DNA of 64,000 nt. Origin: Nitrosomonas communis. Lineage in GTDB: Bacteria > Pseudomonadota > Gammaproteobacteria > Burkholderiales > Nitrosomonadaceae. Shown here one piece after another: positions 56,224 through 64,000 of the stretch (positions within the stretch are counted from its first letter, which is position 1; each line of letters starts with the position of its first letter). Location: positions 1 through 64,000 of the forward strand of contig NZ_FOUB01000017.1 in the NCBI RefSeq assembly GCF_900114745.1, read 5' to 3'. The position numbers and the translations under genes were made by a program. The notes under the pieces are model-generated. The model worked only from the letters and a program-made list of their open reading frames with translations, did no database searches and was not told where the DNA came from.

Positions 56224-57231
56224 TTATCCAATAATGTGCAGATTCGTATAAGCATAAGTTATGCTGGGTTCTCCAATAAATTGGAAATTCTCAACTTCAC
56301 TGATAAATAGATCGGTACCGTTATCAGTATTTGTGATATGAACGCCAAATTTAAGATCTGTGCTATAGAACTTATAATCAACGAAATGGCCTTCCAGGAC
56401 CAGCAGATCTTCACCTTTACCACCTAAAATATTGCCAATTCCGTTTTGCAGGTTAAAGGTGTCATTACCTTGATCACCATAGATCAAGACATCTTGAATA
56501 CCAATGTTAACGCCGCCACCAGTGGCAACCACATTTACAGAATCATCCCCTTTTCCACCGTAGACCACAGCATCTCGAATACCTATATTGACGCCATCAC
56601 CTGTGGCAATGGCATTGACTATGTCATCACCAGATCCTAGACTGAATTCTCCATCTCTTATTCCGATGGTTGTAGCAGTTGCTTGAGCTGTAGCAGCGGC
56701 TACTGCATTTGCCAACGCAGTAGCCTCGCCATTGTTATTTGTTGATGCGAAGGCTAACGCTAAGGATTGTGTAAACGTTTCAGCAACTGCAAAGGCACTA
56801 GCTTCACCAGTTATAATATCCTTTCCTTCGCCAGTGTCAATTTTGCCCAGATTGTTTATTCCCACAACAGTGATATCAGCTATAGCTTGAGCAACGGCCG
56901 TTGCACTACTTATGGCAGTAGCGCTAGCTGTATCATTGGCAATGGCGATCGCTGTAGCCGTGGCAGATGCTACAGCCATAGCACTCGCCCCGCCCGATGC
57001 TATGCCTTTGAGGGCATCCTTCTGCTGGCCAGTTTCAATTATTCCCTGATTCTCATAACCAATGAGTGTAAGTGAACCAGTGCTAAATGACGAAGCAAAG
57101 CCTATAGAGATTGCAGTCCCTTTAGAATCACCTGAGATATTTAAAATTGTTTCAGCAACGGCCTGAGAAGTAGCCTGAACTTTCAGAATCCCTTTTGTTT
57201 CTCCAATAATTACATCTTTTTTAGGTTGCAT
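56224..57231 (-). CDS. RTX-type (GGxGxD) Ala/Thr-rich secreted protein
   Basis: This 335-residue protein has no Sec signal. Residues about 1-200 are built from Ala/Thr/Ile-rich stretches (SATATAIAIANDTASATAIS, ATALANAVAAATAQATATT) separated by short linkers of the form NxGxIDTGxGKDxITGxAxA. Residues about 205-300 contain RTX-like calcium motifs (FSLGSGDDIVN, YGGKGDDSVNV, YGDQGNDTFNL, LGGKGEDLLVL). The C-terminal 50 residues match the end of hemolysin-type repeat proteins (FVDYKFYSTDLKFGV, TDLFISEVENFQFIG), the usual type I secretion region. It may be a calcium-folded adhesin or matrix protein. No ABC transporter is in view. Confidence 0.8.
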   Translation of the reverse strand: MQPKKDVIIGETKGILKVQATSQAVAETILNISGDSKGTAISIGFASSFSTGSLTLIGYENQGIIETGQQKDALKGIASGGASAMAVASATATAIAIANDTASATAISSATAVAQAIADITVVGINNLGKIDTGEGKDIITGEASAFAVAETFTQSLALAFASTNNNGEATALANAVAAATAQATATTIGIRDGEFSLGSGDDIVNAIATGDGVNIGIRDAVVYGGKGDDSVNVVATGGGVNIGIQDVLIYGDQGNDTFNLQNGIGNILGGKGEDLLVLEGHFVDYKFYSTDLKFGVHITNTDNGTDLFISEVENFQFIGEPSITYAYTNLHIIG

Positions 57232-57895: not shown

Positions 57896-58717
57896 ATGAT
57901 TAAGGCATTAAAAATTCTGTTTTTAGATGACGATGCCAACAATGTAAAACCCGTTACTGAATTTTTTCAACCCTTTAGTGGCGAGATTTTTTTCACTTTA
58001 AGTATAGATGAAGCTTTAGATATTATACAAATTAACAATCCCCATCTTACGTTAATTTCTCTCAAATTGGCTCATGCTAACAATTGGTATTTTCTAAAAG
58101 AAATAAAAGAGTACTTAATGCCAATTATTGGATTAGTGGAGACAAAACAATGTCATTTAATGAAGAAGGGACAAGCTTTTGGAATTAATGCTTATCTGGT
58201 AAAACCATTTGATTTATTACATTTGCAAGTACATTTTCGATCAACGCTCGCCCAGATTGGGATTTGCAAAAAAATAATGAATTCAGCAAAAGAACGGCGA
58301 AACTGTCACGATAGGCGAGCATTACAAGGAGGCAGACGGTGGTATGATAGATTTAATCACTTAGAAGCTGCTGAAAATGAAAAGGAAATAGAAGACATTG
58401 GAAGCAAGAAGGAAGAATATATACATATCGGCCCGTTTATTGTCAATTATCAAGAAAAACGTGTTTACCGCAATGAAAACAATTTAAAACTTACTCCAAA
58501 GGAATATAAACTATTTTTATTACTCATTCAAAACAGAAATCAGATTGTTTCTGCAAATTATATTCTCTCACATATTTGGACGTCACAAGAGCGAGCATCT
58601 AAAGAAGATGTAAAACAATATATTTATATGCTCAGAAAAAAAATTGAAAAGGATCCTTCCAATCCATCTCTCATTCTTAATCAGAAAGGGTTTGGCTATC
58701 TCTTTTCCTTCTCGTAG
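57896..58717 (+). CDS. OmpR-type response regulator lacking the phospho-acceptor Asp
   Basis: This 273-residue protein has a receiver-like domain (1-120) with the acidic cluster D11-D12-D13 and the C-terminal Lys (VKPF), but the position of the phospho-acceptor Asp is Ser55 (LTLISLKL). A charged linker (AKERRNCHDRRALQGGRRW) connects to a PhoB/OmpR winged helix at about 180-270 (LKLTPKEYKLFLLLIQNRNQ, DVKQYIYMLRKKIEKDPSNP, ILNQKGFGYLFSFS). No kinase is adjacent. Atypical receivers work without phosphorylation, often by dimerisation or ligand binding. It is convergent with the peptidase/barrel cassette at 58847-62501 and may control it. The codon usage is AT-rich. Confidence 0.85.
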   Translation: MIKALKILFLDDDANNVKPVTEFFQPFSGEIFFTLSIDEALDIIQINNPHLTLISLKLAHANNWYFLKEIKEYLMPIIGLVETKQCHLMKKGQAFGINAYLVKPFDLLHLQVHFRSTLAQIGICKKIMNSAKERRNCHDRRALQGGRRWYDRFNHLEAAENEKEIEDIGSKKEEYIHIGPFIVNYQEKRVYRNENNLKLTPKEYKLFLLLIQNRNQIVSANYILSHIWTSQERASKEDVKQYIYMLRKKIEKDPSNPSLILNQKGFGYLFSFS

Positions 58718-58846: not shown

Positions 58847-60118
58847 TTAACGCGCAATCCTGTAAGGAAGCGATATATTCACAAAATAATCTGGCGAAAC
58901 ATTCGTCAAGCCTATTCCCCCGGTGACAGTCAAGAAGAGTTTGCGGGTCACCATCGACGTTATCCCAAAGGTTGCAATACTTATAACATCATCAGACCCT
59001 GGCACATCGGTATTAGAGGTTTTTGTCTTTTGCCTCCAGATCTGCTGCAAACCCATGGTTAAGGAGGTATATGGACTGGCAGCTAATGAAGCGCCTAATG
59101 AAAGAATATATTGATCTCCTGGATCGATGCCATTTTTTCTCAGTGTTGTTTGATAATCAAAGCTGGTAGTAAAAGCCAAAGGGTCTTGACGTTTAAGCGC
59201 TACCAGAGAAGCCCGAAAGTCGTCGAATCCTGTCCCCATAGGAACATCATTGCTAGTGAGCTTACCACTAGCCGAATCCCAGGTAAAACGGCCAATAAGA
59301 TCAGGTATCCAATCACTTTCACGGAATAGCGTCTTGGCAATTCCAACACTGATATCACCAAGTGCTGCGCCTGTACGAGTAATATCATTTACGTTAGTTA
59401 CACCTTCAGGAATGTTTGTGGTTTGGTTGACAACTCTAGCAGGTAAACGTAATTCCAATTGCGACTCAAAGGGCAAACCGGCGCGAAATATAAAGCCAGT
59501 ATCAAACTCATTGCGCTTAACATCCGCAGTCCTGACCCCTATGAGTTGACCGAGATCATTAGTGACCAGCAACGGAAAACTATCGTCTCTTCGAAAATAG
59601 TTAACAAAAGGCTGTAATTCCATCTGACGAAATGGCAGTAACAGCGCTCCGGCTTGAATCAAGCTACGATCCAATGCACGTTCAGCAGCCAGTGCATCTA
59701 CTTCAAACTCTCCTGCAGATTGTTTTTCTTTTTCCTGGCTCTGAGGTTTGGTATCAGCTTGCGTCTGCTGCACAGGTTTTTCCGCTGCGGGGGGGCTAGC
59801 GGGAGATTGTGTATGATTTGTGGATTCGGGAGATTGCGCCTGGCGTGCAGGTGCCACGGCAGTGGATGGAGATTGCTGCTGGAGCTTTGATGTTCCTTGC
59901 TGACTCTCTAGTAACTTCACCCGCCGATTCAAGTCTTCAATAACTTCATCCCGCTCTTTAATTTTTTGCAGCAATAATTGAATATCTGGATTCGTCGCTG
60001 CTGAATTCTGGGCGTGAACTGGCCGAACAATTGACAATAAAAAAATTAGACCCATTAGACATAAGTTAGATACTGCCAGCAACTTGGTGTTGCTAGAGCA
60101 ATTTGCTGCTTTATTCAA
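58847..60118 (-). CDS. Outer-membrane beta-barrel with N-terminal coiled coil (FapF-like)
   Basis: This 423-residue protein has an N-terminal signal (cleaved near HAQNSAAT, about residue 36) and a short heptad coiled coil (NPDIQLLLQKIKERDEVIED then LNRRVKLLES). A low-complexity linker of Pro/Gln/Ser/Ala follows (about 75-135), then about 280 residues of alternating hydrophobic beta-strands ending in the aromatic/Arg terminus (FVNISLPYRIAR) typical of outer-membrane barrels. This layout (coiled coil, linker, barrel) is that of the Pseudomonas FapF pore, and the C39 peptidase just upstream (248 bp) is the FapD position. It could export the small proteins of the cassette. Assignment is by architecture and order. 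Confidence 0.78.
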   Translation of the reverse strand: MNKAANCSSNTKLLAVSNLCLMGLIFLLSIVRPVHAQNSAATNPDIQLLLQKIKERDEVIEDLNRRVKLLESQQGTSKLQQQSPSTAVAPARQAQSPESTNHTQSPASPPAAEKPVQQTQADTKPQSQEKEKQSAGEFEVDALAAERALDRSLIQAGALLLPFRQMELQPFVNYFRRDDSFPLLVTNDLGQLIGVRTADVKRNEFDTGFIFRAGLPFESQLELRLPARVVNQTTNIPEGVTNVNDITRTGAALGDISVGIAKTLFRESDWIPDLIGRFTWDSASGKLTSNDVPMGTGFDDFRASLVALKRQDPLAFTTSFDYQTTLRKNGIDPGDQYILSLGASLAASPYTSLTMGLQQIWRQKTKTSNTDVPGSDDVISIATFGITSMVTRKLFLTVTGGIGLTNVSPDYFVNISLPYRIAR

Positions 60119-60365
60119 CTATTCTCCCCTTCTTTTATATTAGTTAACCGAAGTTTCACCGTTTTAAGTTCACCAGGGTAGGTAGTGACGGGATGGAAAT
60201 AACTTTAATGCGGTTTATGCTATCGATCGCATATACTCATAAAATTACTCCTGCTTGCAAGCATTTTCTTTATGAAAAAAGGATAAAATTTTTCAACGGT
60301 TTAAAGCCTGCGTGTAATATTAGCACAAAATCAAAAGCGCAAAACTTCAATAATTAAGGACAATT
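60119..60365. other. Spacer between barrel and C39 peptidase genes
   Basis: No gene was recognised. A promoter for the barrel gene may lie here. Confidence 0.4.
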
Positions 60366-61001
60366 TTATTGCAGCATGACGAATTCATCCAAATTAGGTG
60401 TTAAATTATGATTGGGACGGACAGCCCCGTCATGACTGTTGACAACAAAACCAACTCTACCCAGCTGTGGGGATTCAATCCAGCTCTCCACAAACGTTTT
60501 AATCAGCATAGTACGGTTGCCCCAGGCAGGGTCAGCCAGCAATACCCGGTTACCATACATTCCCCGGAAAATTACAAAATGGTTATAACCCTTTGTATTA
60601 ATGGGCACAATAATCGGCGCTTTTTCCACCAAATGCTCAAGTGAAAGTTTACCATAACCGATCCCTTGGTAACCTCTGGCATCTGCGAAACGTTTAAGGT
60701 CCAATAAAGAAAAGCCCTCCCGAATTCTCACTATTAATGGATTTTTTATATACTCAGCTCGATTCATGAGGCCTATCGCAATATCCCTTTCAGTGATGGG
60801 ATCATCATGATGGTAATTGAAAAGAGTTGCTAATACGGCCGCTCCACAGCTTAAGTCATACTTTTGCACCACAACATTTTTCTGCCGCATTTCTAACAGG
60901 GATTTTACTTGCCGAGCTTGAGTATCGTTAAGCCAGAAAAAAAGTATAAAAGCAAGCATAAAGGCAGAGAAAGCAGTTATTTTTTTTGTTATATTTGTCA
61001 T
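60366..61001 (-). CDS. C39-family cysteine peptidase (membrane-anchored, FapD-like)
   Basis: This 211-residue protein has an N-terminal hydrophobic segment (about 10-25, AFSAFMLAFILFFWLND) as anchor or signal. A papain-like C39 domain follows with catalytic Cys in QKYDLSCGAAVLATLFNYHH, His in INTKGYNHFVIFRG, and Asp in LLADPAWGNR. C39 peptidases cut leader peptides after Gly-Gly or Gly-Ala. Here it is not fused to an ABC transporter, so it would act in the periplasm. The three downstream-transcribed-first small proteins (61274-62501) carry a TAG motif near their mature start. It fits the FapD class. Confidence 0.88.
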   Translation of the reverse strand: MTNITKKITAFSAFMLAFILFFWLNDTQARQVKSLLEMRQKNVVVQKYDLSCGAAVLATLFNYHHDDPITERDIAIGLMNRAEYIKNPLIVRIREGFSLLDLKRFADARGYQGIGYGKLSLEHLVEKAPIIVPINTKGYNHFVIFRGMYGNRVLLADPAWGNRTMLIKTFVESWIESPQLGRVGFVVNSHDGAVRPNHNLTPNLDEFVMLQ

Positions 61002-61273
61002 TTTGTCAATGATGTAATTCTCTTATTAAATAAACTACTTGTTGAATTGCCAAATTCATTGCCCTAAAAACGGTAAAACCTTGCCCGATCGTTAAACAAA
61101 GCGTATGCATAAAAAAATACCCTAAAGTTGAGAGCCATGGGTTGTCTACTTTAAAGCTTTTTATAAGATTCCGGTCATAATTGATTAACGGTGGTGTTAT
61201 ATTTTCCGGTTGTCATGAAAGCAAATGATAAATCATGCCCCAACTTTTCAGTCGAGACATGATTTACACCTTT
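61002..61273. other. Spacer with an inverted repeat between C39 peptidase and small secreted protein 3
   Basis: AAATCATG near 61229 pairs with CATGATTT near 61257 across 20 bp; it may be a processing site or terminator between subunit and peptidase. There is no gene. Confidence 0.4.
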
Positions 61274-61603
61274 TTAAGGTGTTATTGTAACGGCAGAAGT
61301 TGCACCAGAAGCTGCGGCATTGCCTCCACCAAAGGTGGCTACGGCGGTTACATTTCCTGCGGTGGCGGTACCAGTAGATACAGGTCCTGCATCCAAAGTA
61401 TTAGCCGTTGCGCCACTAATTGATGAAGCAATCGTAGAAACGCCAGCTGATGCAAATAAACCCGCAGCAGCTGATCCAGCAGCAGCAGTTCCAGCTGTCA
61501 CCTGATCCATTTGTGCAGATGTCAGTTCATTCGTATCTTGAGCGTTGACTGCACCAGCCAATAATGCTATTGTAATTATTGCACCTATTTTTTTCATATT
61601 CAT
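61274..61603 (-). CDS. Small secreted Ala/Gly/Thr-rich protein 3 with TAG-leader motif
   Basis: The ATG at 61603 with GAGGTGAT just upstream gives 109 residues; a GTG nine bases earlier lacks an SD of its own. A Sec signal (MKKIGAIITIALLAGAVNA) is followed by NELTSAQMDQVTAG, then a low-complexity tail of Ala, Gly, Ser and Thr (TAAAGSAAAGLFASAGVST), with no Cys and few charges. It shares the leader motif with 61633-61935 and 62070-62501. The tail could form beta-rich fibrils or be a modified secreted peptide. Its gene precedes the C39 peptidase in transcription order. Confidence 0.8.
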   Translation of the reverse strand: MNMKKIGAIITIALLAGAVNAQDTNELTSAQMDQVTAGTAAAGSAAAGLFASAGVSTIASSISGATANTLDAGPVSTGTATAGNVTAVATFGGGNAAASGATSAVTITP

Positions 61604-61632
61604 TTTTATCACCTCATTTTTTATAACAGTTA

Positions 61633-61935
61633 TTAATTCGCAGAAAGAGAGGTAGCCGTAGCAGCTGAGCCACCACCCGCGACGTGGGTGAATAGACCAG
61701 TATCAACTGCTGTCGCTGTAGCGCCAGTTCCAGTCGTAGCTGCCGATACTGCCAATGGGCCAACTGAAGCAGCACTAGCTTGTGCGGTTCCACCTACAAC
61801 TAATAATACTTGTGCGCCTGCAGTGAGGCCATCGAGTTGAGCATCGTTGAGCGCAATAGGTTCGGGTTCGGTTGCTAAAGCAGCACTTGATACTGCTATA
61901 AAGGCAGCAGCGATTAAAACGTGTAACATTTTCAT
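61633..61935 (-). CDS. Small secreted Ala/Gly/Thr-rich protein 2 with TAG-leader motif
   Basis: This is a 100-residue protein. The signal peptide is MLHVLIAAAFIAVSSAALA, then IALNDAQLDGLTAG, the most diverged version of the shared motif (L-N-D-A-Q-L-D). The tail is hydrophobic and Ala/Thr-rich (AQVLLVVGGTAQASAASVGP, TGTGATATAVDTGLF) and ends ATATSLSAN. TAAGGAGTA precedes the ATG. The gap to small protein 3 is 29 bp, so the two are very likely co-transcribed. Confidence 0.8.
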   Translation of the reverse strand: MKMLHVLIAAAFIAVSSAALATEPEPIALNDAQLDGLTAGAQVLLVVGGTAQASAASVGPLAVSAATTGTGATATAVDTGLFTHVAGGGSAATATSLSAN

Positions 61936-62069
61936 AATTAATTACTCCTTATGTCTTTTTTATTTAAATACAACGCCATCACCCTTTCATTTTCAATCTT
62001 CAAAAAAGGTAATAGCCCCTTTTGTATTTCATAAAACAAGGTTATGAAATAACAAAACTTTTTTATTAC

Positions 62070-62501
62070 TTAATTTGGGCCGAATGTCGGCAAAGTAGGA
62101 ATGACAGTTATTTCCACTGCCGCAGAATGGCTTGATATTGGACCATCGAAGTTATTGGACCCCCCGAAGGTCTGGGAAGGCAGTGTGCCATTTGCCGAGG
62201 TTTGTACACCCGCTCCAGTAGTAGCTGCATCAGTCCCCACCGATGTTCCGCTAGCTCCCGCAGCCGCAACACCGCCACTTTCAGAGGTTGCGCCAGCCAA
62301 TGTTAGTGTGCTAGCAAACGATGCTGCGATAATTCCCGCTGCTTGCGCAGCAGCTGCTGCATCAGCATTTACTTGTGTGCCCGCAGTAACGTAATCCATT
62401 TGCGCTGAAGTTAATTCAGTGATCGGTTGTTGATCATTTGCCATAATCAATGGTGAAGCCATATATAATGCAAAAATCGCAGGTAAACATTTTTTCTTCA
62501 T
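62070..62501 (-). CDS. Small secreted Ala-rich protein 1 with TAG-leader motif
   Basis: The best start is ATG 62501, seven bases after AGGAGG; ATGs at 62507 and 62552 are worse placed. This gives 143 residues. The signal peptide (MKKKCLPAIFALYMASPLIM) is followed by ITELTSAQMDYVTAG, then TQVNADAAAAAQAAGIIAAS and a Gly/Ser/Thr-rich middle. The C-terminal segment is different (PSQTFGGSNNFDGPISSHSA, PTLPTFGPN). It is the first gene of the cassette in transcription order, 134 bp before small protein 2, and the largest of the three, so it may be the chaperone- or nucleator-type member. Confidence 0.78.
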   Translation of the reverse strand: MKKKCLPAIFALYMASPLIMANDQQPITELTSAQMDYVTAGTQVNADAAAAAQAAGIIAASFASTLTLAGATSESGGVAAAGASGTSVGTDAATTGAGVQTSANGTLPSQTFGGSNNFDGPISSHSAAVEITVIPTLPTFGPN

Positions 62502-62689: not shown

Positions 62690-63380
62690 AAAGGTAGTGT
62701 GGTGCTAACAGGTATAGCGAGCGGTAAAGAGCAGTTAGAACAAGCAAGGATTTATTGGTAAATTCAAGAGCAATAGAAGAATTACCACAGGCGCAGGGTG
62801 GGTTGCTGTCTTTGGGATTTGGCTTATCAAGAAGCTGACAGCTGCAACAATAGTTGTTTCAAGAGGCTAAGGGGCCAATTTAGAATACGTTTTATCCGCA
62901 GTGGCGGTATACTAGATACAGACAAGCTTAGCCGTAGTGGACGACGGCGCAAGAATCTTTTGCGTGAAGATGAAGTTTCTTATCTAACGCCCACTATAAA
63001 AAGGGCATCGGCGGGAGGTACCTTGATCGTGACCGAAACCAAGCACTTCATGCACGCTTAAGAGTCTAAAAAAAATAACTTGAACATCACGATGAATGAA
63101 ATTACAAAATTAAGCCTCGAGTATCCGTGAATATAACATGATGTGTTCAAGTTATTTTTTCTAGATCACTTAACAAAGCATAACATTGCTAGTAACCACC
63201 TAAAATCTACTGCACTGTCATGGCTAGCAAAAATTGGCTCCGAACAAACGACATCCCAAACCAGTTTGGTTTTCTCAGGTTGGTTGAAAAATATCTTCGA
63301 GACAGAAATTGACCAAGAGCGATAAGTGAAAGGGCAACCGCGCTTGATGTCTCAGGATGAAACTCCTTCTCCCTCTGCCT
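62690..63380 (+). pseudogene. IS630-family transposase remnant with a family-3 miniature element inside
   Basis: This is a decayed relative of the transposase at 208-1210. Readable pieces are FKRLRGQFRIRFIRSGGILD (which spans the site where copy 1 was hit by a miniature element) and GRRRKNLLREDEVSY with RASAGGTLIVTETK. After an insertion at 63062, tactgcactgtcatggctagc and gatgtctcaggatgaaact still align with 560-760 of the other copy. Almost all of the catalytic domain is missing. It serves here as the empty-site reference for two insertions. Confidence 0.75.
63062..63168. repeat. Miniature element family 3 (107 bp)
   Basis: There is a 25-bp terminal inverted repeat (TCTA-x-AAAAAATAACTTGAACA) at each end, flanked by CTTAA on both sides (63057-63061 and 63169-63173). 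It interrupts the IS630 remnant, and the intact gene at 500-560 gives the empty site. It is the only copy in the window. Confidence 0.8.
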
Positions 63381-63732: not shown

Positions 63733-64000
63733 CTAGCCAAATAGTTGTCGCTGACAATAATCACCAAAGGTTTCGCCCTCCATGCGTTCGCGGGCATAAT
63801 CTGCCAATAAGCTGTCGAGTGCGCTCAAGATTTTGGATTCGTCCAGCCCTTCCTTGTAGAGAGTATTGAGGCGATAGCCCAGGCGATCGCCGCCCAGGCG
63901 CAAATCGTAATGCCCCACTGAGCGCCCCACCAGTCCAATCTCGGCTACATAGGGGCGACCACAACCATTCGGGCAACCTGTCATGCGAATACTAATCTCG
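63733..64000 (-). CDS. cysI: Sulfite reductase hemoprotein subunit (CysI), C-terminal part, cut by window edge
   Basis: About 88 residues are visible in this frame, entering from the right edge: [20 protein letters not shown], then [20 protein letters not shown], and [20 protein letters not shown] to the end …[18 protein letters not shown] holds two of the cysteines that bind the coupled 4Fe-4S/siroheme centre of assimilatory sulfite reductase. It would reduce sulfite to sulfide for cysteine synthesis. The N-terminal part lies outside the window. Confidence 0.88.

Follow-up and report, generated by a model that had tools for sequence, protein, structure and literature searches.

The closest described systems that place a peptidase of the C39 double-glycine family beside a FapF-type outer membrane barrel are Fap and the gonococcal nap island. 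In Fap, the variant C38A of the peptidase FapD abolishes secretion of FapC, which sets a precedent for a role of C39 peptidases (PMC5557850), and neighbouring fapD and fapF genes have been reported in five further phyla (PMC6173800). The combination of GG peptides, a C39 peptidase and a FapF homologue is already known from the 2025 paper on nap (PMC11798529). For substrates of the ABC transporter group PCAT, the leader consensus is L-12, E-8, L-7, G-2 and G-1, where -12 and -7 form the binding knot and -4 determines specificity; the LahT substrate has V-4 (PMC6959990). Here we describe a five-gene cassette from Nitrosomonas communis that combines a C39 peptidase and a FapF-like barrel with three small leader proteins, TAG1, TAG2 and TAG3. 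It lies in a window of 64,000 nucleotides, which is the whole stretch of DNA analyzed (contig NZ_FOUB01000017.1, positions 1 to 64,000).

According to the open reading frame list of the window, five minus-strand frames lie within 58847-62501, in the order given by an earlier note made from the letters alone: three small genes, the C39 peptidase and the beta-barrel. TAG1-3 share a signal-peptide-like N terminus, assigned by eye from a basic start, a hydrophobic core and an A-x-A-like end, followed by L[TN]xAQ[ML]Dx[VL]TAG and a low-complexity tail rich in Ala, Gly, Ser and Thr. In the genome (4.42 Mb, 195 contigs) every component was found at this locus alone, with three leader proteins, one C39 match and one barrel of this family. 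We consider it likely that the cassette is a self-contained two-step secretion system for the TAG proteins. The three small precursors would be exported by Sec and their signal peptides removed. The second leader, now near the new N terminus, would carry the residues by which cytosolic C39 domains bind double-glycine leaders, and the periplasmic C39 peptidase would dock on it and cut after (V/L)-T-A-G. The freed chains of 60 to 102 residues, rich in Ala, Gly, Ser and Thr, would then leave through the FapF-like coiled-coil barrel. Outside the cell they would most likely build a surface or biofilm-matrix polymer, which is the weakest step of the proposal. Whereas the genes, the leader and their co-occurrence are observed, we infer Sec export, the cut after TAG and passage through the barrel.

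Alignment on TAG gave the leader consensus L-12, T/S-11, Q/E-8, M/L-7, D-6, V-4, T/S-3, A-2, G-1. The search pattern fixed -12, -7, -6, -4, -2 and -1, which leaves only -11, -8, -3 and the choice among allowed residues as independent, and the scripted searches also required a signal-peptide-like start. In the columns that were not fixed, 62 leaders from 20 of 22 loci had S/T at -11 in 52 cases, Q/E at -8 in 49 and T/S at -3 in 57. A spurious internal match in L004 was removed before counting, and an L130 leader with a four-residue tail, a truncated frame, was kept. The pattern found no leader in L127 (by sequence the same contig as L002), where the contig ends in the peptidase gene, and missed the one in L131, in whose genome (G420) it was found by profile. 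Between loci (400 sampled pairs), leaders had a median identity of 58%, a value raised by the pattern-fixed columns; signal peptides reached 23%, and the tails 24% over their first 60 residues. The register matches the PCAT-substrate consensus, and the TAG leader therefore agrees with a double-glycine leader that has Ala at -2 and follows a Sec-type signal. All three carry L-12, E/Q-8, L/M-7, a hydrophobic residue at -4, G/A-2 and G-1, partly by construction of the pattern, and cleavage is predicted. A model of signal peptide plus leader (33 rows, TAG1-3 among them) was run over the 4.4 Mb of the N. communis genome. TAG1-3 were returned at E values of 7e-14 to 1.5e-11, and the next matches (0.195 to 0.693) covered the signal-peptide part only. 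The likeness of the three leaders is more than chance because this model finds just TAG1-3 in their own genome.

The same model was applied to 369 genomes of the class, where 7 genomes matched at E<=1e-3. Eleven full-leader matches all fell in 4 genomes, the same 4 that carry the close peptidase clade (E<1e-60), and these leaders adjoin the peptidase. Among 120 genomes of the family, where all candidates shown were scored, the model matched 6, which are the six with a close peptidase (E<1e-90). The remaining 114 family genomes gave no match, though in 17 of them a free C39 was matched that is either more distant or fragmentary. In G432, which belongs to the same genus as the N. communis genome, leader match and peptidase are on separate contigs, and the peptidase contig breaks off at that point. 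With the N. communis genome left out, the chance of such agreement by random matching was 1.2e-7 for the class and 5.5e-9 for the family; relatedness was ignored, and both values are hence optimistic.

Gene neighborhoods were then compared among 14 relatives found through the peptidase. The barrel was in the peptidase locus in 13 of them; in the fourteenth, a short coiled-coil match is followed by the end of the contig. Leader proteins were near the peptidase in 13 of 14, the miss being the cut contig L002. The order of several TAG genes, C39 and barrel recurs in Thiotrichales, in Methylobacter and other Methylococcales and in an unclassified proteobacterium; L008 is an exception, with the barrel on the opposite strand beyond the TAG genes. 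In the class loci (5 to 18.5 kb), a barrel match was present in 36 of 39 at E<=0.01 and in 34 at 1e-6, in a few cases several kb from C39 (L078, L084). Of the 60 class genomes in which C39 was matched, 35 supplied these 39 loci, most of the other genomes having only ABC-type matches; L091, which repeats part of L077, was left out. Peptidase, barrel and leader proteins thus share a locus in other genomes, and the scattering of these genes that the earlier note had named as telling against its reading was not seen.

The peptidase matched Pfam C39 (PF03412) at 3.2e-12. Of the NCBIfam models, FilB gave 1.7e-29 (103.1 bits, cut-off 475) and FapD 1.1e-23 (83.7 bits, cut-off 330), whereas models of ABC-fused C39 transporters matched more weakly (8.8e-8). 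The relation to FapD suspected before was thereby supported, though below the equivalog cut-off. Over the 369 class genomes the FapD model reached E<=1e-60 in 13 and its cut-off in none; the Aeromonas FapD, too, scored below it (248.9 bits). In 16 aligned peptidases, the one of the window included, C52, H141, D157 and Q46 were invariant together with 24 further columns. The Cys, His and Asp that had been noticed by eye are thus conserved, and with PF03412 they place the protein in the C39 double-glycine peptidase family. The best solved relative of the C39 profile was the double-glycine protease domain 6mpz (7.1e-10). The protein has 211 residues and no ABC fusion and is free-standing, as had been noted. 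An ABC-linked bacteriocin exporter was ruled out by the missing fusion and by the peptidase being the only C39 match in the genome. In a maximum likelihood tree of 43 rows, 18 TAG-associated peptidases formed one group (support 98/99), beside groups that we labeled Fap-like (5 rows, 100/98), RGGF (8 rows, 99/99) and Fil-like (2 rows, 99/96). A nineteenth TAG-associated row, L015 from Armatimonadota, which has leaders and a barrel too, fell outside on a long branch; all 19 were united in 44% of the bootstrap trees. Judged by profile, alignment and tree, the peptidase is a distant relative of FapD and FilB with an intact Cys-His-Asp triad and belongs to a clade of its own.

For the barrel, a profile of 14 relatives was searched against the PDB. 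It found four FapF sequences in three entries, with E values of 3.9e-31 (5o65) to 3.3e-30 over profile positions 95-351, and no protein other than FapF below E 0.7. The L015 barrel, which alone matches FapF at 1.4e-28, may lift this profile. Further single barrels matched FapF in L003 (1.9e-8), L009 (2.1e-11), L014 (5.4e-12) and L053 (7.8e-13), the last of which is outside the 14-row profile. Because the family profile finds FapF and nothing else below E 0.7, the barrel is, at the level of sequence homology, a FapF homologue of the coiled-coil type, while missing the equivalog cut-off. A coiled coil lies N-terminal to the barrel domain as in FapF, in agreement with the earlier description of an outer membrane barrel with an N-terminal coiled coil. 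As to the plug helix of the trimeric Fap barrel, a helix-like stretch ahead of the barrel is conserved in the alignment, as judged by eye. An unrelated porin, the other finding that the earlier note had named as telling against its reading, was ruled out, since Pfam gave just a sub-threshold match to Phenol_MetA_deg (0.02) and the profile finds FapF. A leader-type cut inside the barrel was also considered and rejected: the linker has SAGEF, but -7 and -12 are not hydrophobic by eye. The barrels of three methanotroph loci (L004, L005, L013) have a lipobox-like Cys (SGC/SSC) near the N terminus that the window barrel lacks, and the L014 barrel (L014:8637-10397) has a long N-terminal extension with no Pfam match.

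The sub-threshold Phenol_MetA_deg match speaks for a different reading of the barrel, in which C39 would mature TAG proteins that stay in the periplasm or outer membrane while the barrel, a chance neighbor, would be an uptake channel for hydrophobic compounds. FapF is indeed a member of a broader family of channels, some of which have been proposed to serve uptake (PMC6173800). Against chance, barrel and free C39 occupy one locus in 13 of 14 relatives and 36 of 39 class loci (E<=0.01), and the same paper states that no C39 peptidases had been reported from operons of that uptake family. We regard this reading as very improbable.

The mature tails of TAG1-3 contain no Lys, Arg, Cys, Trp or Tyr and have a computed pI of 4.1 to 5.1. 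Lacking Lys and Arg, they should be nearly invisible to trypsin-based proteomics. Neither Pfam nor NCBIfam gave a match over the curated cut-off for TAG1-3, and six related leader proteins had no Pfam match at E<=0.1. A database search with TAG1 gave five relatives at E<=0.001, TAG1 itself included, and nine TAG1-type precursors from other genomes had 26-33% identity to it; because relatives are so few and identity so low, the tails appear to be fast-evolving. Tail composition also speaks to an unlikely alternative, namely that the TAG proteins are bacteriocin-like or lytic peptides, C39-processed and released through the FapF homologue like gonococcal Nap. In its favor, the nap island joins GG peptides to a C39 peptidase and a FapF homologue (PMC11798529), bacteriocins typically carry double-glycine leaders, a set of small paralogous genes would fit, and the computed pI is at least 8.0 for 11 of 62 related tails (five in L008). 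However, mature TAG1-3 are acidic and free of Lys and Arg, compared with pI 9 to 10.1 for the cationic Nap peptides, and none of the five cassette genes is immunity-like.

The tails of some relatives look different. In L014 a related leader protein upstream of the barrel is rich in Tyr, Asn and His, related tails in L008 have short Gln/Asn-containing strands, and a CCG motif occurs in tails of L128-L130 and L005-L007. Therefore the fibre idea is a guess from the neighboring genes, not from the tails; an amyloid product is conceivable, at somewhat less than even odds. As a separate observation, leader genes are repeated around the cassette in L129:9568-13960 and L130:2933-9136, with an ACCG motif in several tails.

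Several points weigh against two-step secretion of the TAG proteins. In the class search, the other three genomes with E<=1e-3 matched in the signal-peptide part only, and at most 20 first-look candidates per genome were scored, so that a leader may have been missed. The leader profile was built from leaders chosen by pattern, and only its matches outside its own rows are independent. The single-protein FapF match of the window barrel is weak (3.8e-8, residues 330-419, 32.5 of 700 bits). FapA-FapD have been reported as unprocessed in Fap (PMC5557850), and a leader is therefore dispensable for passage through FapF. Finally, Asn plus Gln make up just 4-9% of the TAG tails, unlike what is said of FapC. 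The last point was anticipated by the earlier note, which expected a divergent system for secretion or amyloid that has counterparts of FapD and FapF and substrates unlike FapB and FapC; the double-glycine register of the TAG leader was not part of that note. The first part of this expectation gained support from the FapF and FapD/FilB profiles; the second agrees with the tail composition and with a FapC profile search of the N. communis genome, which gave no match at E<=1, no search having been aimed at FapB.

To place the leader in a wider frame, a relaxed register pattern, written after the loci had been seen, was applied to 35 loci with a distant free C39. It matched 37 of 316 signal-peptide-like frames near the peptidase, compared with 16 of 829 farther away or on the opposite strand (Fisher 6.6e-11); shuffling gave an expectation of 5.9 for the 37 and a maximum of 12 in 200 shuffles. 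Several of the 37 are plainly spurious. Clear cases are RGG-F proteins, FapE-like proteins and the TGQ proteins of Fil-like loci. In an alignment of twelve pattern-chosen FapE-like rows, R and G of the site were invariant, of which G was required by the pattern and R was not. The FapE-like leader ends in RG[RK] before Tyr/Phe in the double-glycine register (e.g. L149:5644-6288), and three rows that were tested matched the NCBI FapE model at 1e-22 to 4e-29, below its cut-off. In Aeromonas, listed among the genera with Fap systems (PMC3792158), the A. caviae FapE-like protein (NCBI FapE 2.3e-12, below cut-off) reads LADGELAHLRGR-Y, with the predicted cut after residue 49. The fit is poorer in Acidithiobacillus (L150), where MIGK replaces RG[RK] and position -8 lacks Glu. 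When relatives of FapE were sought with a profile, 54 matches were obtained, most of them nameless and none named FapE or Pseudomonas. Since no Pseudomonas FapE was reached, the prediction for FapE rests on the class loci and Aeromonas.

These FapE-like proteins raise another unlikely alternative, in which the TAG proteins are FapE-like accessory factors whose cleavage by C39 opens or primes the barrel for bulk cargo encoded elsewhere. The shared leader register would suit it, as would the report that FapE is the sole Fap protein processed at its N terminus (PMC5557850). Against it, no FapC or FapE was matched at E<=1 in the N. communis genome; the FapE search is weak, as no control genome matched either, although the FapE model does match FapE-like proteins of the class loci. 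Moreover, a cassette usually has several TAG genes, which mostly stand first, ahead of a strong hairpin, as would be expected of abundant cargo.

Returning to the leader as a cutting signal of exported cargo, we give about even chances to a general rule: a periplasmic C39 peptidase paired with a FapF-like pore would always cut a double-glycine leader directly behind a Sec signal, across Fap, Fil and the TAG system. As part of this reading, the end residues would vary by clade: TAG in the present cassette would correspond to RGG in one of the sister groups, to RG[RK] ahead of Tyr/Phe in FapE-like proteins and to TGQ in Fil-like ones. In published work, no FapE peptides were found in the first ~70 residues and the FapD target is called unclear (PMC5557850), Fap proteins are said to have no canonical C39 sequences, while GG/GA motifs are noted in FapE (PMC5557850, 2017), and the N terminus of FapE and the periplasmic part of FapF are given as presumed targets of FapD (PMC12822426). 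If the rule is true, FapD cuts FapE at the RG[RK] site, and the leader is a second, periplasmic address tag in Gram-negative secretion. The shared TAG cutting signal suggests what Pseudomonas FapD may cut, and together with the same register in FapE-like proteins it makes the FapD-target question testable by single-site mutation. The TAG proteins are also candidate matrix proteins for ammonia oxidizers, and the matrix of their granular sludge has been called amyloid-like (PMC6291783). Among the papers listed in searches of one library, with several listings capped at 12 or 20, none treated the TAG family or a rule that combines Sec export with a double-glycine leader.

The features of the locus are collected in the table. 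A strong stem was present in the interval between TAG genes and C39 in all 12 loci examined, and the best 60-base fold beat all 30 shuffles in 11 of them, not in L054. The hairpin is probably a partial terminator or an mRNA-stability element, and its position fits many substrate transcripts and few machinery transcripts. Promoter and terminator scans of the window, with the hairpin treated separately, stayed at shuffle level. A purine-rich ribosome-binding sequence lies ahead of each TAG gene and of the barrel gene; none was obvious upstream of the C39 gene. TAG3 has 109 residues from the ATG at 61603 or 107 from the ATG at 61597. The adjoining OmpR-type response regulator is a possible regulator of the cassette, and the L127 cassette is also flanked by a gene with the same two domains.

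Features of the cassette and its surroundings (window positions)
Feature	Position	Strand	Remarks
TAG1	62070-62501	-	143 aa; signal peptide, 12-residue leader LTSAQMDYVTAG, 102-residue mature tail
Double-glycine-type leader of TAG1	62379-62414	-	predicted cut at 62379
TAG2	61633-61935	-	100 aa; signal peptide, leader LNDAQLDGLTAG, 60-residue mature tail
Double-glycine-type leader of TAG2	61816-61851	-	
TAG3	61274-61603	-	signal peptide, leader LTSAQMDQVTAG, 71-residue mature tail
Double-glycine-type leader of TAG3	61490-61525	-	
Hairpin between last TAG gene and C39 gene	61228-61267	-	-24.2 kcal/mol, z -8.8
C39 cysteine peptidase, free-standing	60366-61001	-	211 aa; N-terminal signal peptide or anchor; C52, H141, D157
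FapF-like outer membrane barrel, N-terminal coiled coil	58847-60118	-	423 aa; TTG start behind GGGGAG
Predicted periplasmic coiled coil of the barrel	59876-59965	-	LLLQKIKERDEVIEDLNRRVKLLES; by eye; conserved in alignment
OmpR-type response regulator, adjoins cassette	57896-58717	+	possible regulator

The N. communis genome has an ammonia/methane monooxygenase gene, and the bacterium is likely to be an ammonia oxidizer. This family (PF02461) was found in 7 of 16 other carrier genomes (those of loci L003-L015, G136, G172 and G247) and in 9 of 274 class genomes, the own one included, a comparison confounded by relatedness and incomplete genomes. Few of the best 120 database relatives of the C39 peptidase name an organism, and most of those that do are ammonia or methane oxidizers. 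There was no sign of phage or plasmid origin: the window C39 matched 76 plasmid and 2 phage records, all below 60% identity. Upstream of the cassette lie an inverted repeat (63065-63086 and 63144-63165; 22 nucleotides, 95% complementary, 57 nucleotides apart) and a partial frame (63733-63999) that by eye resembles the C-terminal end of a sulfite/nitrite reductase and has no Pfam match; a sulfite/nitrite reductase gene adjoins the cassette in L128 (L128:5794-7518). On the minus strand at 56224-57231, an Ala-rich protein of 335 residues looks RTX-like by eye, with no Pfam family over cut-off. A sister cassette occurs in other Nitrosomonadaceae (L132-L136) and, beside the TAG cassette, in Methylobacter (L004:9951-12455). 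It consists of Asn/Ser-repeat proteins, a small RG-type protein with VIQNSGNNVIIQ-like repeats, a C39 peptidase and an RGGF protein, with a barrel in L132-L136.

Compared with known systems, the cassette shares with Fap a C39 peptidase with a Sec-type signal, a coiled-coil barrel, small exported proteins upstream of the peptidase, the barrel in last place and, in FapE-like proteins, the leader register. It is not a Fap system by membership, because the equivalog cut-offs were missed (peptidase 83.7 of 330 bits, barrel 32.5 of 700) and the genome gave no FapC or FapE match at E<=1, a result that is weak for FapE. In addition, the leader is present in each of the three TAG proteins, in contrast to FapA-FapD, which have been described as unprocessed, and the peptidase clade is separate from the Fap-like tree rows. 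The Neisseria nap island likewise unites GG-type peptides, a C39 peptidase (NapP) and a FapF homologue (NapF) in one locus, and its published model has periplasmic cleavage by NapP and secretion by NapF (PMC11798529). As described there, Nap peptides are cationic, 16 to 36 residues long when mature and tied to autolysis; the TAG tails exceed them in length, contain neither Lys nor Arg and stand behind signal peptides. The putative Fil pilus system of Acinetobacter supplies, with FilB, the best NCBIfam match to the peptidase, and other barrels of the family match FilC weakly; a paper on biofilm of Acinetobacter baumannii mentions FilF and FilC once each. The window proteins stay below the Fil cut-offs (FilB 103.1 of 475 bits, FilC 10 of 630), and in the Fil-like locus L075 the leaders end in TGQ and the peptidase is in another clade. 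With the ABC transporters of the PCAT/AMS group that carry a fused C39 domain (PCAT1, LahT), the cassette has C39 homology by profile and the leader register in common. Its peptidase differs from theirs in having no fused transporter and in having its own predicted signal peptide or anchor, and the TAG leader follows a Sec-type signal.

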